DNA of 51,806 nucleotides. Origin: Polyangia bacterium. Lineage in GTDB: Bacteria; Myxococcota_A; Polyangia; Polyangiales; Sandaracinaceae. The stretch's first letter is position 1; each line of letters opens with the position of its first letter. The translations under genes were made by a program, and so were the position numbers. The stretch lies in contig JAUHXR010000020.1 in assembly GCA_030426845.1 (NCBI GenBank), positions 1-51,806 of the forward strand. Reading direction: 5' to 3'. The notes under the pieces were generated by a model. The model did no database searches and was not told where the DNA came from. It saw nothing but the letters and a program-made list of their open reading frames with translations. This document shows positions 4,860 through 49,978 of the stretch, piece after piece.

Positions 4860-5636
4860 GTGCAGGCGCAGAGGCTGGATCAGAGGCTACACATTCTCCA
4901 CGCCAAGCTCGAGGAGGCCGACGAGGAGGCCGTCCGGGGCTATCACGCGATGCTGGATCTGTCGTGGATCTACCACGACAGCGCGCTCGAGGGTGTCGTC
5001 TACAACATGGACGAGCTCCGGATGGCTATCCAGAGCGATACCCCCCCCGACAGCTCGCTGATCCCGGTCTTCGACGAGATCCGCCAGAACCGCACCGCGA
5101 TCGCGCAGATCCGGGAGCTCGCGGACAAGAAGCGGCTCAACCTCTCGCTCGAGCTCATCAAGAAGCTCTACTCGATCCTCGCTCCGGAGGAGATCGAGGG
5201 CAAGAGCCCGCCCAAGTACCGCAAGGACATGCCGCTGCACCGCATGTACTTCCACGACATCGCGCCGCCGGAGAAGATCTCCTACAAGATGCGCCAGCTC
5301 GTGCAGTGGATGAACAGCGCGGAGACCAAGCGCGCGACCCACACGCTGCGGCTCGCGGCCAAGGCGCACTACCAGCTCCTGCACATCTACCCGTTCCCCA
5401 AGCAGAGCGGGAAGGTCGCGCGGCTGCTGATGAACCTGATCCTGCTCCGGGGCGGCTACCCGCCGGCGATCATCCACGCCACCGAGCGGCAGCGGTACTA
5501 CGAGGCGCTCAAGACGAGCGACAACGCGACCGCGAAGATGGTCACCGAGGCGCTCGTCTCGAGCATGGACAGCGCGATCCGGTTCTTCGAGCAAGAAGAG
5601 ACCGCGCGCTCCGGCCGCCGCGCCCGCTCGGCCTGA
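4860..5636 (+). CDS. Fic-fold protein with degenerate catalytic motif
   Basis: 258-residue protein recognisable as Fic family. Near the N-terminus it keeps the inhibitory-helix motif S-x-x-E-G (SALEGVVYNMDEL, about residues 41-53). The core helix context AAKAHYQLLHI...VARLLMNLILLRGGYPP is that of Fic AMP-transferases. The active-site motif, normally HPFx(D/E)GNGRxxR, reads YPFPKQSGKVAR (residues 177-188): the catalytic His is Tyr, the metal-binding acidic residue is Lys, GN is QS, and the phosphate-binding Arg is Lys. AMPylation is therefore unlikely by known chemistry; it is either a pseudoenzyme or has another activity. GTG 4860 is chosen because GGAGGT ends four bases before it; GTG 4848 is possible. 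It stands alone downstream of the TTGAC array. Confidence 0.85.
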   Translation: MQAQRLDQRLHILHAKLEEADEEAVRGYHAMLDLSWIYHDSALEGVVYNMDELRMAIQSDTPPDSSLIPVFDEIRQNRTAIAQIRELADKKRLNLSLELIKKLYSILAPEEIEGKSPPKYRKDMPLHRMYFHDIAPPEKISYKMRQLVQWMNSAETKRATHTLRLAAKAHYQLLHIYPFPKQSGKVARLLMNLILLRGGYPPAIIHATERQRYYEALKTSDNATAKMVTEALVSSMDSAIRFFEQEETARSGRRARSA

Positions 5637-37348: not shown

Positions 37349-37948
37349 TCACGCGGGCTTCGACGCGTCCTGGGACTCGAGGAAGTCGCGCGCGACGCGC
37401 CGGATCTTGTGCTGCCAGTTGTAGATCACCTGCAGGTCGACTTGCAGGATCTCGGCGACGCGGGCCGGGGGCATGCCGTCGGTGAACGCATAGCGGAACA
37501 CGAGCTGCCCCCGGGGCGAGAGCGACGCCATCAGGTGGCGGCCCAGCTTGAGCGCCAGCTCCGAGGCGGCGACCTCGGCCTCGGGGGTGGGCCCCGACTC
37601 GGGGGGCTCGGCGCCCGCCTCCAGGTCGACGTGTGTGGCCATGCTTCCTCGTTTCTGGGCCGCCCGGAGGCGCAGCCGATTTCCGATCTCCCGGGCCGCG
37701 ATCATCCCGACGTAGCCCTCGAGCGAGGCGCCCCGGGTGGGGTCGTAGTCCCGCAGCGCCCGGCCGTTGCCGCGCAAGAGCGCGTACCAGACGTCCTGCA
37801 CCAGATCGCTCAGCTCGACCCCGCGCGTGGCGCCGCGGGCGAGCGCGACGCGGGCCCGCGCCTCGAGCACCGGCGAGAGCCGGCGAACGAGGCGCTGCAC
37901 CGCCGCCTCGTCCCCCGTGAGGGCCTGACGGATGAGAAGCTGGTCCAC
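37349..37948 (-). CDS. ECF-type RNA polymerase sigma factor
   Basis: 199 residues. Region 2 (about 40-95; ELSDLVQDVWYALLRGNGRALRDYDP...LEGYVGMIAAREIGNR) and region 4 (about 145-190; LSPRGQLVFRYAFTDGMPPARVAEILQVDLQVIYNWQHKIRR) are in place, with no region 3, which defines an ECF sigma factor. It is the last gene of the CHAT-membrane protein-subtilase operon, 34 bases after the subtilase. GTG 37948 is the start. The membrane protein at 40268 is the likely anti-sigma partner, and the CHAT and subtilase lipoproteins could feed signals to it. Probably directs transcription of its own operon (see 43717). Confidence 0.9.
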   Translation of the reverse strand: MDQLLIRQALTGDEAAVQRLVRRLSPVLEARARVALARGATRGVELSDLVQDVWYALLRGNGRALRDYDPTRGASLEGYVGMIAAREIGNRLRLRAAQKRGSMATHVDLEAGAEPPESGPTPEAEVAASELALKLGRHLMASLSPRGQLVFRYAFTDGMPPARVAEILQVDLQVIYNWQHKIRRVARDFLESQDASKPA

Positions 37949-37982: not shown

Positions 37983-40253
37983 CTACTCGATCCGCAGCGC
38001 CGACACGGTCGTCTCGGGGATGTTGTTCCCGTCGGCCACCGTCACCAGGAGCGAGGCCTTCGCCTCCGACCAGTCGAAGCCCTCCGGGATGTCGAGGAGC
38101 GAGAGCTGCAGGATCTGCGAGGAGCCGGGGTAGAAGTACTGCTCGTACGCCTGCAGGTTGAAGGCGAGGGTCTGCTCCATCGGGCCGACCACGACGAGAA
38201 TGGGCTGGGAGAAGCTCGTCCCCGGCTCGTAGTCCGGCTTCAGGTCGACGAAGAGCACGCCCGTGGTGCCGTAGACCGTGAGGCCGCAGTCGGGGCAGGG
38301 GGGATCGTGAGGCTGCGGACCCAGCCCGCCGTTGAGCGACTGGAAGGGCGCGGGGTCCGGGGCGCACCCGGCGGGCGGGCACGTGGCGTCGACGAAGCCG
38401 CCCGCGACCACGACGGTGGGGCCGCACGCGTCGCTCGGCGCAGGGAAGGCGGCCGGCCAGGCGACGGAGGTGTGCTCTGCGCAGCTCAGGACCGGCGCGC
38501 CTTCGTCGTCCACGATCTCGAGCCCGCAGGCTTCGAGCTCGCCCGCGAACGAGCGGAGCAGGTCCGGGCCGATCGCGACGTCGCTGGGCTCCTGCGCGCG
38601 GTCGAGCAGCGACCCGCAGCTCGACTCGGAGAGCGCCTGGTCGAGCCGCCCGACGTGGAGGCGGCGGACCACCGCTCCGTCGGCCGTGTGGCGGGGTGAG
38701 GTCGGGTTCATCCGCTCGCAGGTGGTCTCGCCCGTGAGGTAGAGGACGCGGGCGAGCGTGTCGGCCGCGAACGGCTCCTCGCGGGCCGACTGCGCGCGCG
38801 CGGCCGCGCCGCTCACGAGCGCGGCGCTCACCGACGTGCCCGTGAACACGTGCGGCAGCTCGACGGTGGCCGGCGCCGTGGTGGGCCCGCAGGCGGGCGG
38901 GCTCGCGGTCGACGTCACGGACGGGTGGGCGGCGTAGACGTGCTCCCCCGGCGCGACGAGCGGCGGCTCCATGCCGGGGATCGAGACGGCGCTCGGGCGG
39001 TCCCGGTCGTCCACCGCGCCGACGCCGATGCCGAGGCGGAAGGTCGAGTGCACCCCGTCGGCGCAGGAGTCCGTCTGCTGGTACCAAGCCGGCGCGAACC
39101 ACGGCTGGGCCGGCCACGGGTCGGCTCCGCAGTCGTGGTAGACGGCGCTGGACGGAGGGAACAGGCCGGGCGACGGAGGCCGCGGCTGGTTGCCGGCCGC
39201 GGACGAGACGAAGACCTCGCGCGACTCGAGCTGATCGGCGACGTAGAGCATGTAGCGGACGGGCTCGCCGAACGGATCCTCGTGCGTCTGACACGAGGCC
39301 TCGCCCGCGAGCTCCGCGGGCCGCCCGAGCTCGGCGGGCCAGCCCAGGCTCAGGTTCACCACGAGGGGTCGCGTGCTGTCCGCGTCGGCGAAGAGGGCGT
39401 GGTCGAGCCCCCGCGCCACCGAGCCTCCCAGGCCCGCGCCGCCCTCGCCGAGCACCCGGATCGAGTGGAGCGCCGCCTCGGGCGCGAGCTGACGGATGAG
39501 CACCGCCATCCCGGTCCCGTGGGGGTGCAGCGCGCCGCCGCCCGCGAAGTCGGCGCTGCTCGTCACGCCGATCTGCGCCGCGACGGCCCCGTCGACGCCG
39601 GTGTCGAGGACCGCGACGTCCACGCGCGGATCGCTCGGCGGCGACGTCGCCAGGCTCGCGGGGAGCCCGACGCGGTCGAGGTGCCAGCTCAGCATGTCGG
39701 GCGTGGCGACGTCCTCGACCCCCATCGCGGTCGCGTCGCACTCGCGGCCGACGTAGATGTCATCGGCCGAGACGGGCACGGCGAGCGCGGCGGCGGCGTC
39801 CAGCAGCTCGGTGCGCAGCGTCGCGACCACGTCGCATTGCGCCTCGGGACGCACCGGGACCACCCCGCCGTCCGGGGTGATGAAGCGGTACCGGTAGAAG
39901 CGGAGGTGGCCGTCCTCCCGGACCCCGGCGGACTCGCGCTCCGGCAGCAGCGGGGCCGCGTCGACCTCCACCTCGGTGTAGGGGCACGGCCCGACCGCGT
40001 CGCAGAACCAGCCGGGGTTCGCCATCGCGGCCGCGGTCATCGCCTCTTGCGTCACGCTGGCCACGCGGTGGTCGCGCCACGGCACGTTCCGCGCGAGCGG
40101 CACGTCGACGTAGAAGACATCCGACCGACACGGGCGCGCGATGACCTCGGCGCTGCCGATCGCCGCTTCGGTCCGGCCGAGCTCGGCCGCCGGGGCGGCG
40201 CCCACGCAGCCCGTCATCGAGGCGGCGGCCAGCAGAGCAATGTAACGATCCAT
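37983..40253 (-). CDS. Subtilisin-like serine protease lipoprotein
   Basis: 756 residues from ATG 40253. A signal peptide ends in MTGC (Cys16), so it is a probable lipoprotein. Residues 20-210 form a long pro/accessory region. The S8 catalytic triad is intact: Asp217 (VAVLDTGVDG), His245 (HPHGTGMAV), the oxyanion Asn355 (SAAGNQP), and Ser474 (FTGTSVSAALVSG). The C-terminal 270 residues form an additional beta-rich domain. It hydrolyses proteins in the periplasm or at the outer surface. A purine-rich AAAGGA lies upstream of the start. It sits between a membrane protein and the ECF sigma gene, and could cleave the anti-sigma-like protein. Confidence 0.92.
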   Translation of the reverse strand: MDRYIALLAAASMTGCVGAAPAAELGRTEAAIGSAEVIARPCRSDVFYVDVPLARNVPWRDHRVASVTQEAMTAAAMANPGWFCDAVGPCPYTEVEVDAAPLLPERESAGVREDGHLRFYRYRFITPDGGVVPVRPEAQCDVVATLRTELLDAAAALAVPVSADDIYVGRECDATAMGVEDVATPDMLSWHLDRVGLPASLATSPPSDPRVDVAVLDTGVDGAVAAQIGVTSSADFAGGGALHPHGTGMAVLIRQLAPEAALHSIRVLGEGGAGLGGSVARGLDHALFADADSTRPLVVNLSLGWPAELGRPAELAGEASCQTHEDPFGEPVRYMLYVADQLESREVFVSSAAGNQPRPPSPGLFPPSSAVYHDCGADPWPAQPWFAPAWYQQTDSCADGVHSTFRLGIGVGAVDDRDRPSAVSIPGMEPPLVAPGEHVYAAHPSVTSTASPPACGPTTAPATVELPHVFTGTSVSAALVSGAAARAQSAREEPFAADTLARVLYLTGETTCERMNPTSPRHTADGAVVRRLHVGRLDQALSESSCGSLLDRAQEPSDVAIGPDLLRSFAGELEACGLEIVDDEGAPVLSCAEHTSVAWPAAFPAPSDACGPTVVVAGGFVDATCPPAGCAPDPAPFQSLNGGLGPQPHDPPCPDCGLTVYGTTGVLFVDLKPDYEPGTSFSQPILVVVGPMEQTLAFNLQAYEQYFYPGSSQILQLSLLDIPEGFDWSEAKASLLVTVADGNNIPETTVSALRIE

Positions 40254-40267
40254 GTGCAGGTCCTTTG

Positions 40268-40981
40268 TCAGTTGTCGTCGGGGTTCTGGAAGCGGACGCG
40301 TCGCTCGAACCGAGCGAGCGCTTCGACGCCCTCGAGCTCGTCGATCGAGCCGACCGCGGAGCGTTCGCCGGGTGGCGTCACGAGCACGTGGAGCGTCCAG
40401 TCGCCGGGCTCGTCGAAGAGCGCGCCGGCGCGGATCTCCACCCGAGCGCCGCCGCGCGGTCCGCTCACGATCTCGGGGGAGGTCGCCTCGACGAGGCGCC
40501 CTCCTCGGGCGGCGAACACGCGGATCGTGCTGGGCGCCGCGGGCCCATCGGGTCGCGCGACGAGCCGCAGGCGACTGTCGGGGACGAACACCTCGGAGGC
40601 CGGGCCCTCGCCGCGCTCGGTCGCCACCCCGCCGGTCGGCCCCTCCAGCGTGTAGTGACCATCGAGCGCGGGCGCTCCGCCCGCCGGCCACACCATCACC
40701 GCGAGGAGGGCGGCGGCGGCGAGCGACCCCGCGCCCATCGTGACGCGGGCGAGCTGGCGACGCCGACGGCTCCCTCGGAACGCGGCCTCTCCCTGGGCCA
40801 GGGTCGCTTCGCTCACCGGCCGTCGCAGCTCGGCGAGCAGGTCGCGCGCCTCCCGGTTTCGCGCAAGCATCGCCTCGGTCGCCTCGTCGAGCGCGAGCAG
40901 CTTGCCGTCGTCGATCGGCTCCGCGGTCGGCTCGTCGTCGGGGATCGCGCGGAGCAGCGCGTCGAGCTCGTCGTCCGTCAT
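40268..40981 (-). CDS. Single-pass membrane protein, candidate anti-sigma factor
   Basis: 237 residues. The N-terminal 75 residues are acidic and helical (MTDDELDALLRAIPDDE..., LLALDEATEAMLARNREARDLLAELRRPVSEATLAQGEAAFRG), then RRRR and one TM helix (about 80-99, MGAGSLAAAALLAVMVWPA). A 140-residue beta-rich extracytoplasmic domain follows. There is no zinc-finger HxxxCxxC motif, so if it is an anti-sigma factor it is not of the ZAS type. Position between CHAT and subtilase, upstream of an ECF sigma, and topology make this role the best guess. ATG 40981 overlaps the CHAT stop (ATGA); the subtilase starts 14 bases after its stop. Confidence 0.6.
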   Translation of the reverse strand: MTDDELDALLRAIPDDEPTAEPIDDGKLLALDEATEAMLARNREARDLLAELRRPVSEATLAQGEAAFRGSRRRRQLARVTMGAGSLAAAALLAVMVWPAGGAPALDGHYTLEGPTGGVATERGEGPASEVFVPDSRLRLVARPDGPAAPSTIRVFAARGGRLVEATSPEIVSGPRGGARVEIRAGALFDEPGDWTLHVLVTPPGERSAVGSIDELEGVEALARFERRVRFQNPDDN

Positions 40982-43704
40982 CGCGCCGGCTCCGGTCGAC
41001 GCCAGCCCAGCACCCGGAAGCGTCGCCAGCCGCTCGCCCCTGCGGCCTCCGCGGACAGCGCCGCGTCCCGGTAGGCCCGCACCGGCTCGCGCGCGCCGCC
41101 GTGCGCGTAGAACGACTCGATGAAGCGCTGCGCGGCGGCGTCGTCGACGTCGCCGTCGGTCGCGAGCACGCCGCTGGCGCCGAGCGCCACGAAGGCCTCG
41201 GCGAGGCTGATGGGCGCGGTCGCGGTCTCGGCGGTCCGGCAGCCGCTGAGCACCACCACGCCGACGCGCGGGGCGGCCACGAGCAGGTCTTCGAGCGAGA
41301 GCACCTGCCCGCCGGTGAGGTCGAGGTGCGCGTCCCACGCGCCCTCGCCGCGCAGTCGGCCATGACCGGCGAAGTGAAAGAGCGACGAGCCGTCGACGAG
41401 GTCCAGCACCGCGCGCCGCGTCGCCGCGTCCCCGACTACCACGCGCGCCTCGGTGAGCTCGGCCACGCGCGCTCCCTCGGCGCGGGCGTGCGGGAGGTCG
41501 CCGTCGGGGTCCGCGACCACCACGCGCGGGCCCGGGGCGGGCGCGCGCCGCGGCACGCCGGCGTGCGTCAGGTAGGCGATCCCGAACCGCTCCAGCCACG
41601 GCGCGCCGCTCGGATCCTGCGCGCGATGCAGCGCCCGCGCCCCTTCGGCCGCCGCGACGACGTAGAGCGACGTCACCCCCGCCAGGTCGTCGGCGAACGG
41701 CGCGAGCGCGGCGCGCGCGAGCCATCGATGGATCCGCGTCTCGGGCCGGATCACGAAGCCGAGCACGCGATCGCCGACCTGGCTCAGCGAGAGCAGCGCC
41801 TCGTCCGGCTCGAGCGCCTCGGCGACCGCGTCCGGCGACGCGACCTCGATCGAGATCGGCGCGACCCGCTCGAGGTAGCCCTCGATGTCGTTGAAGCGGC
41901 TCGCGAGCGCTCGCCGCTCGACGACCCGCTGCGCGTCGAAGGCCGGCAGCTCGGAGGTAGGCACGAGATCGCGCTCGCTCCGTGAGACCTCGTACCGCGC
42001 GCGCGCGTCGAGGTAGTCGCTCACCAGCGCGTCGAGGCGCTCGCGTCGCGAGGCCGGGAGCGCCTCGAGCCGGAGGCGCGTCTCGAGCTCTCGCTGCGGC
42101 ATCGTGTGGAGGCGCTGGACGACCAGGAACGCGTCCCCCTCGCGGCCGGCCTCCAGGGCCCACCGGGCCGCGGACTCGTAGAGCCGGCGACGGTCCCGCC
42201 GGAACAGGGCGCGCGAGCCCTCCAGGTCGACGTGGGTGGCCAGCGACTCCACCTCGTCGATCGCGGCCAGCGCGTCGTCGGTGGCCCGGTCGAAGCGCCC
42301 GCGCTGCGCGCGCACCTGGGCGCGGCCGAAGCGCGCCCGCCACGCGTACTCGGACCCCACCCCGCCGCCCTCCTGCTCCGCGAGGCGCAGGGCCGAGTCG
42401 AACCGCATCTCAGCCGCGGTGAGCGCCCCCGACGCGAGCGCGATCTGGCCGGCGACGACCTCGGTGAACGGACCGGCGAACGACTCGCGGGCCGGGTCGA
42501 GGCGCTCCAGCTCGCGGAGCAGCGTGAGGGCCCGCTCGTGCCGGCCGTCGAGGTACTCGACCCACACGAGGTTCGCGACGTGGTTGGCCTCGTGCCTCGT
42601 CGAGCCCTGCTGCTGGGCGAGGCGGCGGGCCTCCTCGAACGCCGCGCGCGGCCGCGCGCGATCGACCTCGATGGCCCCCGCCTCCATGGCCTGCAGGAGC
42701 ACCCAGCCCCGATCGTTGACGAAGTGCATCCAGAGCGGCGTGCCCTCCAGCCGCGGCGCGACGCGGTCCAGCGCCTCCACCGCCTCCGCGTGCTGGCCGG
42801 TGCGCGCGAGCAGGGGCGCGCGGGCCTGCGTCGCCAGCGCGGCCTCGACGTCCAGGCCGGAAGCCCAGGCGATCTGCTCCGCCTCGTCCAGCGCGGCCTC
42901 GGCGCGCCGGAGGCTCCCGCGCTCGAGCAGGACGTAGGCCCGGGTCCGCAGCGCCCGCGCGATGCCCTGCGCGTTCCTCGTCTCGCGGTCGAGCGCCTCG
43001 GCGCGATCGAGGCGACGGAGCGCGTCGTCGAAGCGCCGGGCGTACAAGGCCTGGTGCGCCGCGGCGCGGAGGCCCCTCGACGCCTCGGTCGGGACACCCG
43101 CGCTCGTCGCGGCCTCGGCCACGCGGTCCCACGCCGCGATCGCCGCGCTGACGTCCCCCTGGCTTTGCGCGACGCGCGCCAGCTCGACCCGCGCGGCGAC
43201 GCGCGCCCGCGGCGAGAGGCGCTCCAGCGCTCCCTCGAGGAGGGCCTGCCGTCGCTCATCGGACGCGCTCTCGAGGCGCGCGCGGAGCTCCTCGGGGAGG
43301 GGGGCCGGGTCCGCCAGGCGGAACGACGCGCGGACTCGCCCCTCGGCGTCGCGGACCTCGAGCCGATCGCCCGCCGGCGCAGACTCGAGCTCCACGCGCA
43401 TCAGGCGGTAGCGGCCTCGCTCCTCCTCACGCGCGACCGTCAGGTCGAGGCCGGCGTCCCCCCGCGCGATCTGCAGGGACAGTGGCTCGGCCGACCGCGG
43501 GACGCGCACGACGAGCTCGGCGCCGAGCACCACCGCGAGGCCGTCCCCGCCGTCGACGACCCGCTGCTCGTAGCCGAACAGCTCGGCGTCGATCGGGGGC
43601 GCGGCGCGACGGTCAGCCGGCCGATCGCAGCCCGCGACGCCGACGATCAGGCAACAGACAGCGCGGGCAGCGCGCGTGCGCGCAGCGGTGAGAGGAGCGG
43701 CCAC
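40978..43704 (-). CDS. TPR-CHAT caspase-like protease lipoprotein
   Basis: 908 residues from GTG 43704. Signal peptide ARAVCCLIVGVAGC with lipobox VAGC, so an envelope lipoprotein rather than the usual cytoplasmic CHAT protein. A short beta-rich part is followed by about ten TPR-like helical repeats (about residues 150-540). A C-terminal CHAT domain (about 600-900) has the catalytic His781 in LFHFAGHGRLRGE and Cys822 in VVLSGCRTAE, followed by SLAEAFVALGASGVLAT. The His-Cys dyad is intact, so peptidase activity is expected. TPR-CHAT proteins are activated by partner binding. First gene of the operon with anti-sigma-like, subtilase and ECF sigma genes. Confidence 0.88.
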   Translation of the reverse strand: MAAPLTAARTRAARAVCCLIVGVAGCDRPADRRAAPPIDAELFGYEQRVVDGGDGLAVVLGAELVVRVPRSAEPLSLQIARGDAGLDLTVAREEERGRYRLMRVELESAPAGDRLEVRDAEGRVRASFRLADPAPLPEELRARLESASDERRQALLEGALERLSPRARVAARVELARVAQSQGDVSAAIAAWDRVAEAATSAGVPTEASRGLRAAAHQALYARRFDDALRRLDRAEALDRETRNAQGIARALRTRAYVLLERGSLRRAEAALDEAEQIAWASGLDVEAALATQARAPLLARTGQHAEAVEALDRVAPRLEGTPLWMHFVNDRGWVLLQAMEAGAIEVDRARPRAAFEEARRLAQQQGSTRHEANHVANLVWVEYLDGRHERALTLLRELERLDPARESFAGPFTEVVAGQIALASGALTAAEMRFDSALRLAEQEGGGVGSEYAWRARFGRAQVRAQRGRFDRATDDALAAIDEVESLATHVDLEGSRALFRRDRRRLYESAARWALEAGREGDAFLVVQRLHTMPQRELETRLRLEALPASRRERLDALVSDYLDARARYEVSRSERDLVPTSELPAFDAQRVVERRALASRFNDIEGYLERVAPISIEVASPDAVAEALEPDEALLSLSQVGDRVLGFVIRPETRIHRWLARAALAPFADDLAGVTSLYVVAAAEGARALHRAQDPSGAPWLERFGIAYLTHAGVPRRAPAPGPRVVVADPDGDLPHARAEGARVAELTEARVVVGDAATRRAVLDLVDGSSLFHFAGHGRLRGEGAWDAHLDLTGGQVLSLEDLLVAAPRVGVVVLSGCRTAETATAPISLAEAFVALGASGVLATDGDVDDAAAQRFIESFYAHGGAREPVRAYRDAALSAEAAGASGWRRFRVLGWRRPEPAR

Positions 43705-43716
43705 GGTACGAGTTAT

Positions 43717-43750
43717 TACTCGAACCGCTCGGGGCGCCTTTTCGCAAACC
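43717..43750 (-). promoter_or_regulatory. Candidate ECF promoter of CHAT operon
   Basis: On the minus strand GGTTTGCGAAAAG is followed after 12 bases by GTTCGAGTA (43725-43717), about 13 bases before the GTG of the CHAT gene. AAAAG-N12-GTTCGAGTA recurs in the opposite direction at 43801-43826. Two conserved blocks whose centres are about one and a half to two helix turns apart fit the -35 and -10 of an ECF sigma factor. Confidence 0.6.
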
Positions 43751-43800
43751 CGAAAAAAAGTCGGACGGGAACGCGCGGTTGGCCTGGCGCGCGCTCGTGA

Positions 43801-43826
43801 AAAGTCGCGGCCCATCGTTCGAGTAC
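43801..43826 (+). promoter_or_regulatory. Candidate ECF promoter of the matrixin operon
   Basis: AAAAG (43801-43805), 12 bases, then GTTCGAGTA (43818-43826), the same bipartite element and spacing as on the other strand. It lies 80 bases before the ATG of the lipoprotein gene, leaving a leader with an AGGAG ribosome binding site. Confidence 0.6.
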
Positions 43827-43906
43827 CTCCCCTCGTGAGGCGGCGAAGCACGCCGCGACAGATCCGCGCACCGCAGCTGCGGGGCGCGACATCGGGAGGA
43901 GAGCAG

Positions 43907-44500
43907 ATGAAGAGTCACAAGCCCCTGAGTCACCCGCGCCGATGGGTGGCCCTGATCTCGGTCATGCTGTCGATCGGCTGCTCGGCGGGGGGCGTGCCCG
44001 CGGGCAGCACCACGAGCGCGGTGGAGGAGGCGGAGACGATCGAGCGCACCTCGATCACTCCGACGACCCCGGCGGAGCTCGCCATCAGCCGCGTCGAGGG
44101 GTTCGACCTCGAGCTGTACGCCCAGCGCGCCGACTTCGTCCTGCTCGGCCACGTCTCCGAGGCGCGCGCGCAGCGCGTCGTCTACCCGACGGGCGACGTG
44201 CGCGTCGAGACGCAGTTCACGATCCGCACCGAGGAGGCGTTCGCGGGTGAGCCGGAGGAGGAGCTGATCCTCACCGTCCGGGGCGGCGAGGTCGACGGCG
44301 TCCGCTCCAGCGTCTCGCACGCGGCCGAGCTGGCGATCGAGGACGACGTACTGCTCTTCGTCACGCGCGGCCCGACCCAGGATCGCGTGCTGGGCGGCGC
44401 GCAGGGCGCGCTCCTCGTCCGCGAGGGCATGATCGTGGCGACCGGTGAAGAGGTCGCGACCTTCGCGGAAGCGGTCATCAACGCGCGGGAGGGGGCGTGA
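43907..44500 (+). CDS. Lipoprotein paired with matrixin protease
   Basis: 197 residues. Signal peptide with lipobox SIGC (Cys25), then a beta-rich domain with FVLLGHVSEARAQRVVYPTGDVRVETQFTI, ELILTVRGGEVDGVRSSVSHAAEL, DVLLFVTRG and VLGGAQGALLVREG. Proteins of this pattern (ending in a G-x-A-Q-G strand) are commonly encoded directly before a matrixin-type protease in deltaproteobacteria, as here. It might be an inhibitor, chaperone or anchor of the protease; this is inference. The ATG has AGGAGAG just before it. The stop overlaps the matrixin ATG (TGATG). Confidence 0.7.
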   Translation: MKSHKPLSHPRRWVALISVMLSIGCSAGGVPAGSTTSAVEEAETIERTSITPTTPAELAISRVEGFDLELYAQRADFVLLGHVSEARAQRVVYPTGDVRVETQFTIRTEEAFAGEPEEELILTVRGGEVDGVRSSVSHAAELAIEDDVLLFVTRGPTQDRVLGGAQGALLVREGMIVATGEEVATFAEAVINAREGA

Positions 44501-47400
44501 TGAGTCGCTCCACGCGCATCGCGGCGCTCGTGATCGCCGCGCTCGTCGGGCTCCCGCTGGCCGGGGCGTCCGCGTTCACCCTCGACCGGCGCTGGCACAC
44601 CGGCGTGGTCGAGTACCACATCAACAACCAGGGCTTCCGCGGCTCCACGCTCCCGACCTCCGTTCAGAGCGCGGCCATCGAGGGCGGCGCGGACGAGTGG
44701 CAGTTCGAGGGCTGCTCGCCGTTCCAGTTCAACCGGCTGGGCGCCACGACGACCCGGATCGACAACGACGGTCGCAACGTCGTCCTCGTGCCCGAGATCT
44801 CCTCGCTGCCCGCCAACGCGCTCGCGCAGACGACGCAGCGGTTCCGTTCCGACGACCCGGAGCGGCTCATCGAGTTCGACATGGAGTTCAACCAGCACTT
44901 CGTGGTCGGCGTGCCCGGCAACGGGACGGTGATGAGCGGCGGCGGCATCGCCTTCGGCAACATGACGGGCTCGGGCTCCGAGGTGGTGCTCTCGGCGCTC
45001 GACAACGTCCATCCTGGCCTCGACTACTGGCGGGTCACCTTCGGTACGAGCTGCCAGAACGGCTGCTCGTTCGTGACGCCGGCGAACATCCCCGCGGGCG
45101 GCACCCACCTGGCCTCGAGCGCGGTGGCGCTCGGTGAGCTCGACACCGGGGCGTTCGGTCAGGAGACCGTGCTCAGCGCGATCGATCGCTTCGACGGCGG
45201 GACCGACTACTGGCGCGTCCGCGCGCTCCGGTCCTGCGGCACCGACCCGTCGACGTGCGTCCGCTCGCCGATCCTTCAGGTGCACCCGCCCGGGGTGAAC
45301 CGGATGACCGGCGGCGGCGTTGCGGTGGCCAACGTGTTCGGCAACTCCAAGCCAGAGATCTTCCTCCTCGGCGTGGAGGAGGTCGACGGCGGGCTCGACA
45401 ACTGGATCCTGGCGGTCCTTACCGACTGCGACGCGTCGCTGAGCTGCGCGGCTCAGAACTTCCACACCATTCCGACGCAAGGGACGGTTGTCACGGGCGG
45501 CGGGATCGCCGTCGGCGAGCTCGATGGCACTCCGGGCCTGGAGATCCTCATCGCCGGAATCGACAACTTCGACGAGGGCCACGACTACTGGCGTGCCAAC
45601 GTGGTCGAGTGCACGAATGGCGCGGTCTGCACCGCGGGCACCACCATCATCCAGGTCGGCTCCGGCGGGACGACCCTCACCGGGGGCGGCGTCGCGATCG
45701 GCAACGTCGACGGCGACTCGGACAACGAGGTGATGCTGGGCGCGATCGACGTCTGGGAGGGCCTGGACTACTGGCGCGTGGCCCGGCTCGACGACGACTG
45801 CTTCGACACCGCCCCCGGCTGCAGCACGGAGATCACCCAGGTCCCCGGCGGCGGCTCGGTGATGAGCGGCGGCGGGGTGATGCTCGCCGATCTCGACGCC
45901 TCGGGGACCCCCGAGCTCGTCCTGAGCGGCATCGACAACTACGAGGACGGGCTCGACTACTGGCGGGTCGCCTTCGGCCGCGACTGCGACGGGGGGGTCT
46001 GTCCGATCGGGCGCGCCTTCTCGACGAGCGGCGCCCCGGGCACGACGGACATCCAGTCCGTCGCCGCGCACGAGTTCGGACACGCCGCCGGTCTCAATCA
46101 CACGGCCGCGGTGCCCTCCGCGGTCATGACGTGCAGCATCGGGACGGGCATGCAGCGGCGTGATCTCACCTGCGACGACGTGCACGGGCTCCAGCAGCTC
46201 TACTCGACGTCGTCGGTCTGCCCCAACTTCGGCAAGGTGCAGACCCTGAGCACCGGCCTGGCCGACGCGGAGGGCGGACACGCGGTGGCGGTTGATCTCG
46301 GCGGATCCACGCACGGCGTGATGACCATCGCGGTCGAGCGCGGCGTGCCGAACCCTCGCTGGGCCATCGGCGTCGGGAGCGGCTGCAGCACGGTCACCGG
46401 GGAGTGCAGCTGGGCCCCCGCTCAGCGGATCCAGTCGGAGGCGGAGGCGCTGTCGAGCCCGAGCATCGCGGTCGGCCGCTTCGACGGTGACGCGGACGAC
46501 GACGTCATCATCTCCGCGATCTCGACCGAGGCGGACGGAACCCAGGGCGTCCGCTACCGGATCGGCACGGAGTGCAAGTCCACGGGCTGCGAGTGGGGTG
46601 ACGAGCACTTCAGGCCGCTGACGGGCGCGTCGCACCCGCTCACCGGCGGCGGCGTCGCCGTCGGTCGGGTCGTCGACGACGGCTCGGAGCGGCCGCAGGT
46701 GGTGATCGCGGCCATCGAGCGGCGCCCCGGCGCGCCGGACCAGTGGGTCTACGAGATCGGGATCGCGTGCGGCGCTGACGACTGCGTCTTCTCGGGCTTC
46801 CCGCAGAACGTCTCGTCCGGGGTCGATGACCTCGTCGGCGGCGGCGTGGACATCGGCTCGCTCGACACCAGCGGCACCGAGGAGGTGGTGCTGGCGGGGA
46901 TCCGGACCGATCCGCTCGACTCCGACGACTGGGTGGTGGCGATCCTCCGGGACTGCAGCACCAACAGCTGCGTCTCCCCGTCGGCGCCGTTCACGGTCTC
47001 CGCGGCGGAGAACGGGCCGGCGATGATGTGCGGGGCCTCGCGTGGTCAGCTCCTCTCCGACGCGGCGGGCACGATGCGTGGCGGCGGCGTCTACGTCGGC
47101 GACCTGAGCGGCGGTCCGGAGGACGAGATCCTCATCAGCGGCATCGACGCTGGCGACGACCATCACTTCTATCGCCACGTGCTGCTGTCGAACTGCGACG
47201 TCGGCGTGCAGACCTGCCCCGCGCCTACCGCGGCGCGGGTCACCTCGAGCGGCGCGGCCGGGCTCAGCGGGGGCGGCATCACCGCGCGGCGGGTCGACGG
47301 CGACCTGGACTACGACGCGGTCCTCGTCGGCCTCGACACGGCGGGCCCGAGCGGCGCGTACTGGCGCGTGCGTAACCGGGTCGACCCCTGCGGGCTCTGA
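44500..47400 (+). CDS. Matrixin-type metalloprotease split by tandem repeats
   Basis: 966 residues. A signal peptide (AALVIAALVGLPLAGASA) is followed by the first half of a matrixin catalytic domain (RRWHTGVVEYHINNQGF ... LIEFDMEFN, residues 27-133). Then come six repeats of about 62 residues (134-510), each with GGGxAxG..., an acidic D..G.xEhxLxxID core, and LDYWRV. The domain then resumes with DIQSVAAHEFGHAAGLNHT (zinc ligands His524, His528, His534) and the Met-turn SAVMTC. Six more repeats (about 570-960) follow. The repeats resemble VCBS/FG-GAP propeller blades. ATG 44500 overlaps the stop of the preceding lipoprotein gene; GTG 44497 is also possible. It should be a secreted zinc endopeptidase if the split domain folds. 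Confidence 0.85.
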   Translation: MSRSTRIAALVIAALVGLPLAGASAFTLDRRWHTGVVEYHINNQGFRGSTLPTSVQSAAIEGGADEWQFEGCSPFQFNRLGATTTRIDNDGRNVVLVPEISSLPANALAQTTQRFRSDDPERLIEFDMEFNQHFVVGVPGNGTVMSGGGIAFGNMTGSGSEVVLSALDNVHPGLDYWRVTFGTSCQNGCSFVTPANIPAGGTHLASSAVALGELDTGAFGQETVLSAIDRFDGGTDYWRVRALRSCGTDPSTCVRSPILQVHPPGVNRMTGGGVAVANVFGNSKPEIFLLGVEEVDGGLDNWILAVLTDCDASLSCAAQNFHTIPTQGTVVTGGGIAVGELDGTPGLEILIAGIDNFDEGHDYWRANVVECTNGAVCTAGTTIIQVGSGGTTLTGGGVAIGNVDGDSDNEVMLGAIDVWEGLDYWRVARLDDDCFDTAPGCSTEITQVPGGGSVMSGGGVMLADLDASGTPELVLSGIDNYEDGLDYWRVAFGRDCDGGVCPIGRAFSTSGAPGTTDIQSVAAHEFGHAAGLNHTAAVPSAVMTCSIGTGMQRRDLTCDDVHGLQQLYSTSSVCPNFGKVQTLSTGLADAEGGHAVAVDLGGSTHGVMTIAVERGVPNPRWAIGVGSGCSTVTGECSWAPAQRIQSEAEALSSPSIAVGRFDGDADDDVIISAISTEADGTQGVRYRIGTECKSTGCEWGDEHFRPLTGASHPLTGGGVAVGRVVDDGSERPQVVIAAIERRPGAPDQWVYEIGIACGADDCVFSGFPQNVSSGVDDLVGGGVDIGSLDTSGTEEVVLAGIRTDPLDSDDWVVAILRDCSTNSCVSPSAPFTVSAAENGPAMMCGASRGQLLSDAAGTMRGGGVYVGDLSGGPEDEILISGIDAGDDHHFYRHVLLSNCDVGVQTCPAPTAARVTSSGAAGLSGGGITARRVDGDLDYDAVLVGLDTAGPSGAYWRVRNRVDPCGL

Positions 47401-47490: not shown

Positions 47491-48909
47491 TCAGCTCCAG
47501 AGGTCGTGCGCGAGCCGGTCGACCATCGCGACGGCGGCGTCGGCCGTGGGGAGCCCGGCGACCTCGACGAGGGCCGGGTCGTGGGTCCGGGCCGCCTCGT
47601 CGCGCAGCGCCACGATCGCCTCGCGGCGGGCCTCCTCGACGCGGGCGCGATCGGCCTCGCTCAGGCGCGGCTCGAGCCAGCCCGCGAGGGCCCACGACAG
47701 CTCGGCGTGGCGCAGCTCGTCGTCGGCGACCTCACGCATCGCGGCTCGGATCTCCGGGTCGCGCGCGGCGTCGGCCTGGTAGGCCCCGAGGAGGGCGCCG
47801 AAGGTCTCGCGCACGCAGCCCTCGACCGCGTTCTCGAGCGCGATGTCGAGCGCGCTCCGGCCCTCGATCGGGTCGAAGGTGCTCGTGCCCGGCTCCGCGC
47901 CGTAGCGCCGCGCGATCGCCCCCATCGACGCGGTGTGGCGGACCTCGTCCTCGCGCGCGGCCCGGGCCGCGTCGATCAGCGCGGGCGGCGCGCCGAGGCC
48001 GGTGAGCTCGTCGATCATCACGTCGAAGGCGTCCACCGCGCTCGCCTCGAGGACCGCGATCTGAGCGAAGAACGCGCCGACCGGGTCGCTCGCGCGGCCC
48101 GGGGCGTCGGCCCGCAGGCCAGCCGGTCGGCGGCCCACGCAGCCGAAGTCCTCCTCCTCGCGGATGACCTCGGAGGACTCCTCGGTGACCGCGCCGCTCG
48201 ACTCGACCCGCACCGTGTGGCGGGTGGTCACCCACGGCGTGCCGCAGCCGCCGGACTGGCGGTAGCCGACGACGCGCCAGCCCCCGGGGATCTGGGTGAC
48301 GCTCGTCGGGTCGGTCTCCGAGCACCAGATGTCGTAGCCGGCCCGCCACGCGACGAGCGCCGCCTCGTGGGCGGTGTCGATCGGGCCGAGGAGCCCGAGC
48401 AGCTCCGCCTCCTCCTCGAGCGCGTCGACCGCGTCGCCGGTCTGGGTGAGGAGCGCGCGTTGGTAGGTCGTCTGCTCGAGCTCGGTGATCGCGGCCACAC
48501 ACGCGGGCGTGTCGGTCGCGTCGGCGCAGCGCTCGCCTCGCTCGACAGTGATCTGCGGGATCCCGCCGGGGACGCTCTCGATCTGACCGATCCAGCTCGG
48601 GTCGCGGGTCAGGGTCAGGCCGTCGAGGGCCTGCCACCGACCGTCCGTCGAGCAGAGCCCGGGGGGCGGCGGCGGCGGCGGCGGGCCCGCGTCGAAGCCG
48701 GCCGCGTCGATCTCGCCCGCGTCGGGGATCGAGCCCGCGTCCACCGAGGTGTGCGACGTGTTGCAGCCCGCGACCACGGCGGCCGCGACGGAGGCCTGGG
48801 CGAGCCGGCGCAGGTACGGGCCGAGGCGGAACCCGAGCGTCGAAGTGATCAAGGCGTCGAGCTCGGCGCGGGCGGGGGTGGGGCGGTCGAAGGGGCGTCG
48901 GATCGTCAT
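47491..48909 (-). CDS. Ferritin-like diiron domain lipoprotein
   Basis: 472 residues from ATG 48909. Signal peptide with lipobox VVAGC (Cys49), DAG/Pro linker, then a middle region of unknown fold with cysteines. The C-terminal about 220 residues form a four-helix ferritin-like bundle with two E-x-x-H type half-motifs: EASAVDAFDVMIDEL with EDEVRHTASM, and ENAVEGCVRETF with DELRHAELSW. These are the diiron ligands expected for ferritin-like oxidases. Export of a ferritin-like domain is unusual; it may use iron or oxygen at the cell surface. No neighbour tells its substrate. Divergent from gshB. Confidence 0.78.
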   Translation of the reverse strand: MTIRRPFDRPTPARAELDALITSTLGFRLGPYLRRLAQASVAAAVVAGCNTSHTSVDAGSIPDAGEIDAAGFDAGPPPPPPPPGLCSTDGRWQALDGLTLTRDPSWIGQIESVPGGIPQITVERGERCADATDTPACVAAITELEQTTYQRALLTQTGDAVDALEEEAELLGLLGPIDTAHEAALVAWRAGYDIWCSETDPTSVTQIPGGWRVVGYRQSGGCGTPWVTTRHTVRVESSGAVTEESSEVIREEEDFGCVGRRPAGLRADAPGRASDPVGAFFAQIAVLEASAVDAFDVMIDELTGLGAPPALIDAARAAREDEVRHTASMGAIARRYGAEPGTSTFDPIEGRSALDIALENAVEGCVRETFGALLGAYQADAARDPEIRAAMREVADDELRHAELSWALAGWLEPRLSEADRARVEEARREAIVALRDEAARTHDPALVEVAGLPTADAAVAMVDRLAHDLWS

Positions 48910-49039
48910 GCCACGGACCAGAGCGAAGGGTGTGCCAGCGCCAACGAGCGGCACGCCGTGCTCGAGCGCTTGGCCAAACTGTGCCGTCGGACCCGGGTGC
49001 GACTTGCCCGGTCCGGCCGGCTGCTCCACATGGGCGGGG

Positions 49040-49978
49040 ATGCGCATCCTCTTCGTCATGGACCCCGTGTCGACCGTCCTCGTGGACGAGGACACCTCCT
49101 TCGCCCTGATGCTCGAGGCCCAGAACCGAGGGCACGCGGTCGAGCACTGCCTGCTCCGCGACCTCTTCGTCGACGGCGACCACGTCGGGGCCCGCGCCCG
49201 CGCCGCGACCTGTCAGCGCGACCCGGCCGAGCCGATCACCCTCGGCGAGCCGCGCGACCTCGATCTGCGGGCCGACGTGGACTGCGTCTTCATGCGCAAG
49301 GACCCGCCGTTCGACGTGCCGTACCTCTGGGCCTGCCAGGTCCTCGAGCACGCGCGCGGCGACACCCTGCTCATCAACGACCCGCGCGGGCTCCGCGACG
49401 CCAACGAGAAGATCTACGCGACCTACTTTCCCGAGCTGATGCCGGCCACGCTGATCAGCAGCGACAAGGAGCGCATCAAGGCGTTCGTCGCGCGCCACGG
49501 CGGGCGCGGCGTGATCAAGCCGCTCGGGATGATGGGCGGCCACGGGGTCTTCCTGATGAAGGAGGGCGACCCGAACCTGAACGCGACCATCGAGACGACC
49601 ACCGTCGGCGGCACCACCCTCGCGATGGCCCAGGAGTTCCTCCCGTCGATCAAGGACGGCGACAAGCGCATCCTGCTGCTCGACGGCGAGTACCTCGGCT
49701 CGATCAACCGGGTCGCCCAGGGCGGCGACCTGCGCAGCAACATCCACGTCGGCGGCCGGGTCGAGGGCGCGGACCTGAGCGAGGACGACCGCCGGATCGT
49801 CGAGGCGCTCGCCCCGCGGCTCAAGGCGGACGGGCTCGTCTTCGTCGGCCTCGACGTGATCGGCGGCCGGCTCACCGAGGTGAACGTCACGAGCCCGACC
49901 GGGATCCAGCAGGCCTCGCGGATCAGCGGGCAGAACCTCGAGGCGAAGGTCCTCGAGTGGATCGAGCGCGCGGTGTGA
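49040..49978 (+). CDS. gshB: Glutathione synthetase
   Basis: 312-residue ATP-grasp enzyme that ligates gamma-glutamylcysteine and glycine. Markers: the N-terminal MRILFVMDPV, the FMRKDPPFDVPYLWA loop, NDPRGLRDANEK, GVIKPLGMMGGHGVF (ATP-grasp lid), GEYLGSINRVAQGGDLRSNIHVGG, and GLDVIGGRLTEVNVTSPTG near the end. All are typical of bacterial GshB. gshA is not in the window. It overlaps the next gene by GTGA, so they are read together. A secreted gamma-glutamyltransferase is encoded at 34812. Confidence 0.95.
   Translation: MRILFVMDPVSTVLVDEDTSFALMLEAQNRGHAVEHCLLRDLFVDGDHVGARARAATCQRDPAEPITLGEPRDLDLRADVDCVFMRKDPPFDVPYLWACQVLEHARGDTLLINDPRGLRDANEKIYATYFPELMPATLISSDKERIKAFVARHGGRGVIKPLGMMGGHGVFLMKEGDPNLNATIETTTVGGTTLAMAQEFLPSIKDGDKRILLLDGEYLGSINRVAQGGDLRSNIHVGGRVEGADLSEDDRRIVEALAPRLKADGLVFVGLDVIGGRLTEVNVTSPTGIQQASRISGQNLEAKVLEWIERAV

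Follow-up and report, generated by a model that had tools for sequence, protein, structure and literature searches.

The window, a stretch of 51,806 nt that constitutes one contig (C532) of a 9.4-Mb Polyangia bacterium genome in 538 contigs, carries two operons encoding proteases that diverge from a 202-bp intergenic region (43705..43906). The locus raises the question of whether the two operons share a promoter and, if so, which sigma factor reads it.

A bipartite element between divergent operons

Each strand of the divergent region carries a single copy of the sequence GAAAAG-N12-GTTCGAGTA. The minus-strand copy (43717..43743) lies ahead of the operon that begins with a CHAT protease gene, and the plus-strand copy (43799..43825) lies ahead of the lipoprotein/matrixin operon. 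The two copies point outward, each to its own operon, and are identical across AAAAG-N12-GTTCGAGTA, as the preliminary description had it. The identity reaches one further base (GAAAAG), and with flanking partial matches 20 of 29 positions agree. The positions given in that description were right to within one base, the plus copy ending at 43825 and not at 43826. The distances to the start codons, given there as 13 and 80 bases, were found to be 12 and 81: twelve bases separate the last base of the minus copy (43717) from the CHAT GTG, which starts at 43704, and 81 nt separate the end of the plus-strand box from the ATG of the first plus-strand gene (43907), which is preceded by a GGGAGGAG site. 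There is no ribosome-binding site between the box and the GTG, and the CHAT gene is apparently near-leaderless. A tRNA T-arm (GTTCGA) or other RNA feature was also considered, and none was found at the element.

The spacing characteristic of promoters for extracytoplasmic function (ECF) sigma factors, about 16-17 nt from box to box, is present at both sites in the form GAAAA-N16-CGAGTA, directed to each operon. The textbook ECF boxes have AAC at -35 and CGT at -10 (PMC8103513). The -35 box lacks AAC, both window sites reading GAAAAG, and CGT is absent at the expected distance, where CGAGTA is found (CGAGTG at a third site described below). Two of the three copies do contain CGTT, but N11 places it too close. 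Neither a GAAC-N(13-19)-CGT promoter nor a sigma-70 consensus was detected in 43705-43906. The ECF-type -35/-10 spacing proposed earlier stands. The element is ECF-like in shape, with an A-tract, a 16-nt spacer and CGAGTA, but has no AAC and CGT boxes.

Genes of the two operons and related modules

The minus-strand operon begins with a TPR-CHAT protein of 908 aa (40978..43704; Pfam CHAT, 1.2e-21) with a lipobox-type signal sequence recognized by eye. The catalytic His (HFAGHG) and Cys (LSGC) are present, and these columns are conserved in 32/32 family members that have a residue there. The second gene (40268..40981, minus strand) encodes a protein of 237 aa that alignment and an AlphaFold model mark as a candidate anti-sigma factor. 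Its N-terminus is cytoplasmic and a single transmembrane helix (72-97) leads to an extracytoplasmic beta-sandwich; in the model, cytoplasmic helices and one transmembrane helix are followed by a confident beta-sandwich outside. The candidate has no Pfam family and a fold search returned weak, uninformative Ig-like sandwich matches only. Its topology and gene neighbourhood would suit a membrane anti-sigma factor, but no anti-sigma family or fold is recognized. A subtilase follows (37983..40253, minus strand; Pfam Peptidase_S8, 9.3e-12; signal sequence by eye). The final gene (37349..37948, minus strand) encodes an ECF-type sigma factor of 199 aa that matches TIGR02937 (2.2e-14; 53.4 bits vs. 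a cut-off of 42.9) and Sigma70_r2 above its cut-off, region 4 falling below. It is short and has sigma-2 and sigma-4 alone, as expected of group IV (ECF) sigma factors, and it is the only DNA-binding regulator recognized in the two operons.

The plus-strand operon starts with an open reading frame for a putative lipoprotein of 197 aa (43907..44500), which has no reliable family and a weak paralogue elsewhere in the genome. It is followed by a secreted matrixin-type metalloprotease of 967 aa (44497..47400, plus strand; Pfam Peptidase_M10, 4.9e-11) in which internal repeats flank the catalytic domain on both sides; a search of 183 genomes belonging to the order found no homologue of it at 1e-30. 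Adjoining this operon on the opposite strand (47491-49095) is a gene for a putative exported ferritin-like protein with a weak rubrerythrin match.

Related loci were collected as 49 regions picked by sigma similarity, mostly from Polyangiales relatives of the same order; carriers of the sigma subfamily include Sorangium cellulosum, Polyangium and Labilithrix. A TPR-CHAT gene lies nearby in about 36 of the 49 regions, and in most regions inspected the sigma gene is directly followed by a gene for a membrane protein whose conserved features run from a DDEL motif close to the N-terminus through a transmembrane helix and LPxY to an extracytoplasmic domain. Pfam confirmed subtilases at two related regions (L041 and L047), and gene order varies among relatives, divergent layouts included. 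Modules of a sigma factor, a single-pass membrane protein and a TPR-CHAT protein were seen at L041, L043, L045, L047, L075, L076, L077, L079, L081-L083, L086, L088, L093, L100 and others. The genome of the window holds two further sigma/membrane protein/CHAT modules (G000:C357, locus L047, and G000:C373, locus L075). Searches with the CHAT protein and the matrixin did not find a close orthologue of the window module. The sigma factor, the membrane anti-sigma candidate, the TPR-CHAT protease and, usually, a subtilase form a recurrent module in Polyangiales relatives.

Genome-wide occurrence and alternative explanations

The element proved not to be frequent in the genome. Within the 9.4 Mb, no further site is identical to the 15 specified bases or differs from them at a single position; seven sites have two mismatches, among them one at C464:47357 with both mismatches at the outer ends. 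At up to three mismatches, 72 sites were counted vs. 78 for a reversed-pattern control, which indicates that there is no cloud of degenerate sites. With exact half-sites, AAAAG-N(9-15)-GTTCGAGT occurs three times in the genome, every time as N12, and its reversed pattern does not occur; under a third-order Markov model the expected number of N12 sites is 0.007, a figure to be read in the knowledge that the third site was first met as a two-mismatch match and the core was trimmed to AAAAG/GTTCGAGT afterwards. Three core sites, all N12, against this expectation point to a small dedicated regulon. Among 176 other genomes of the order the AAAAG-N(9-15)-GTTCGAGT search gave roughly a hundred sites, four of them N12, and the N12 form was not found in the nine other family members.

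The third core copy, AAAAG-N12-GTTCGAGT (G000:C464:47357-47394; 5358-5395 of locus L125), stands 11 nt ahead of an ATG, a distance that agrees with the 12-13 nt at the CHAT gene. The gene that follows encodes 928 aa; its product, which bears a signal sequence, a PHB-depolymerase-type Esterase domain and a C-terminal Extensin-like_C domain, is probably an exported esterase. Two family members have orthologues of this gene (72-73% identity); the element is absent there, and neither genome has a match to the sigma factor of the window. This fits a regulon link specific to the present genome, and it fits coincidence too. The third site, which was invisible to the preliminary description, supports and extends the idea of a regulon.

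The possibility was considered that the two matches, or all three, are chance similarities without function. Plain letter counting makes them only modestly unusual: the region, dinucleotide-shuffled 1500 times, gave an inverted bipartite match of this length in 6 cases, and in GC-rich 202-bp windows, which are coding DNA, the same match length was reached in about 2%. For the 14-base core of the preliminary description, 0.11 one-mismatch sites are expected in the genome. However, an AT-rich box against a background of 74% GC makes weighting by base rarity important, and with this weighting none of 2000 shuffles matched the observed score (best 28.9 bits vs. 35.1 observed) and the element ranked first of 1033 window tiles. 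Nothing comparable, the same dyad on both strands, was seen in seven other divergent regions. Moreover, all sites have the correct orientation and identical spacing and lie ahead of genes for exported proteins. The earlier statement that the match is unlikely by chance is borne out by the composition-aware test, and an origin by coincidence is very improbable.

If the element is functional, it could instead be bound by an activator or repressor at both promoters and not be a promoter itself. Operators common to divergent genes are frequent, and the minus copy coincides in part with a near-palindrome, CGAGT-AATA-ACTCG. This symmetry is missing from the plus copy, however, and the element is directional and bipartite and holds a constant 11-13 nt ahead of two near-leaderless starts; a transcription factor gene was not recognized among the scanned proteins of the two operons. 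A binding site of this kind is accordingly regarded as improbable. A shared promoter might also be read by another sigma factor, either a different ECF factor or a housekeeping variant, giving co-regulation without autoregulation. The boxes alone do not identify a sigma factor, the genome encodes many candidates, with at least two more of the same subfamily (those of C357 and C373), and housekeeping-like promoters seem frequent at the sigma-CHAT operons of relatives: TAnnnT stands 6-9 nt ahead of leaderless starts in 10 of the 49 relatives, where 3.6 are expected. Given these -10 boxes and the lack of the element in related operons, autoregulation is not established for the sigma family. On the other hand, far more sites would be expected for a sigma factor in housekeeping or other wide use than the three that exist, two of which lie around this sigma operon, and the divergent region offers no sigma-70 consensus. 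Reading by a different sigma factor is consequently considered rather unlikely, if less so than a regulator-binding site.

Proposed recognition of the element and release of the sigma factor

It is well supported that GAAAAG-N12-GTTCGAGTA is a promoter element common to both operons. From its geometry, exclusivity and gene neighbourhood, the element is best explained as ECF-type, with the sigma factor of the CHAT operon as its reader; positive autoregulation is usual in ECF sigma factors (about 55%; PMC8103513). The preliminary description had proposed autoregulation of the sigma operon together with co-regulation of the metalloprotease. The shared promoter is well supported, but reading by the operon's own sigma factor remains plausible and unproven because related sigma operons lack the motif. 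The element is absent from the related sigma-CHAT operons and from the paralogous modules at C357 and C373, and a de novo search upstream of sigma/CHAT genes at 48 related loci yielded no shared dyad above the reverse-strand control. The window sigma factor diverges from its family in regions 2.4 and 4.2 (NRLRLRAAQKRG vs. SILRSRRRSPW and LQVIYNWQHKIRR vs. PDAVYAWRSRIGK, respectively). Divergence in both DNA-contact regions would explain a private motif.

The sites with their spacing, orientation, position and rarity, the gene content and the conserved catalytic residues are observations, from which we infer promoter function, recognition by this sigma factor, its inhibition by the membrane protein and its proteolytic release. 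In the proposed scheme GAAAA would serve as the -35-like box and CGAGTA as the -10-like box across the 16-nt spacer, the reader being the sigma factor encoded last in the CHAT operon. The minus-strand copy would drive the sigma factor's own operon, comprising TPR-CHAT, anti-sigma candidate, subtilase and sigma genes, the plus-strand copy would drive the divergent lipoprotein/matrixin operon, and the C464 copy would drive the exported esterase gene. The layout of the module suggests protease-controlled release of the sigma factor. At rest the sigma factor would be kept bound to the membrane protein; upon a signal at the envelope, the exported CHAT protease, the subtilase or both would bring about its release, and the sigma factor, once free, would increase expression of its own operon along with that of the secreted hydrolases. 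Taken as a whole, a promoter read by the ECF-type sigma factor of the CHAT operon, a regulon of three sites and proteolytic release make up a reasonably probable account.

The arrangement resembles the autoregulated ECF promoters of E. coli RpoE and B. subtilis SigW (PMC8103513) in its two boxes about 16 nt apart, the A-tract in the upstream box, the site ahead of the sigma-encoding operon and a regulon limited to a few envelope or exported proteins. It differs in that the boxes are GAAAAG and CGAGTA, not GGAAC or TGAAAC with CGT, and that recognition is predicted here; furthermore, the sigma gene is last and the TPR-CHAT protease gene first in the operon. As in the RseA/DegS and RsiW types of regulated proteolysis, the ECF sigma factor is encoded alongside a protein that crosses the membrane once, from a cytoplasmic N-terminus to an extracytoplasmic domain, and proteases are present on the outer side. 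Here, however, these are CHAT and S8 proteases, not DegS or PrsW with a site-2 protease, and the membrane protein has no known anti-sigma fold.

In the Csx29/Csx30/CASP-sigma system of type III-E CRISPR (Craspase), the inhibitor of a sigma factor is the substrate of a TPR-CHAT protease, and promoters in the same locus and elsewhere contain the sigma motifs (PMC10028731). The window likewise encodes a TPR-CHAT protease, with catalytic His and Cys, together with an ECF-type sigma factor and an inhibitor candidate. In contrast to Craspase, the CHAT protein has an export signal, the candidate inhibitor is membrane-spanning, the CRISPR effector is replaced by a subtilase, and cleavage of the inhibitor is hypothetical. 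No Cas domain (gRAMP/Cas7-11 effector) was detected among seven proteins of and adjoining the module. Since no CRISPR effector was seen in the module and the CHAT protein is apparently exported, the parallel suggests a possible mechanism and not membership. Tentatively, the module may be an envelope counterpart of the CRISPR CHAT-sigma circuits, in which an exported, caspase-like TPR-CHAT protease, with or without the subtilase, would cleave a membrane anti-sigma factor and free an ECF sigma factor for secreted proteases and hydrolases; this is possible, but it is held with less confidence than the promoter assignment.

The paired element is real and better supported than could be known from the window, and the interpretation first placed on it is the most likely one, though unproven. 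Of greater interest than the promoter pair is the module behind it. The analysis provides a candidate regulon of three promoters for an uncharacterized sigma factor and links it to a module of TPR-CHAT protease, subtilase and candidate membrane inhibitor found repeatedly among Polyangiales relatives. Should the CHAT protease act on the inhibitor, sigma factors would be under caspase-like control outside CRISPR systems as well.
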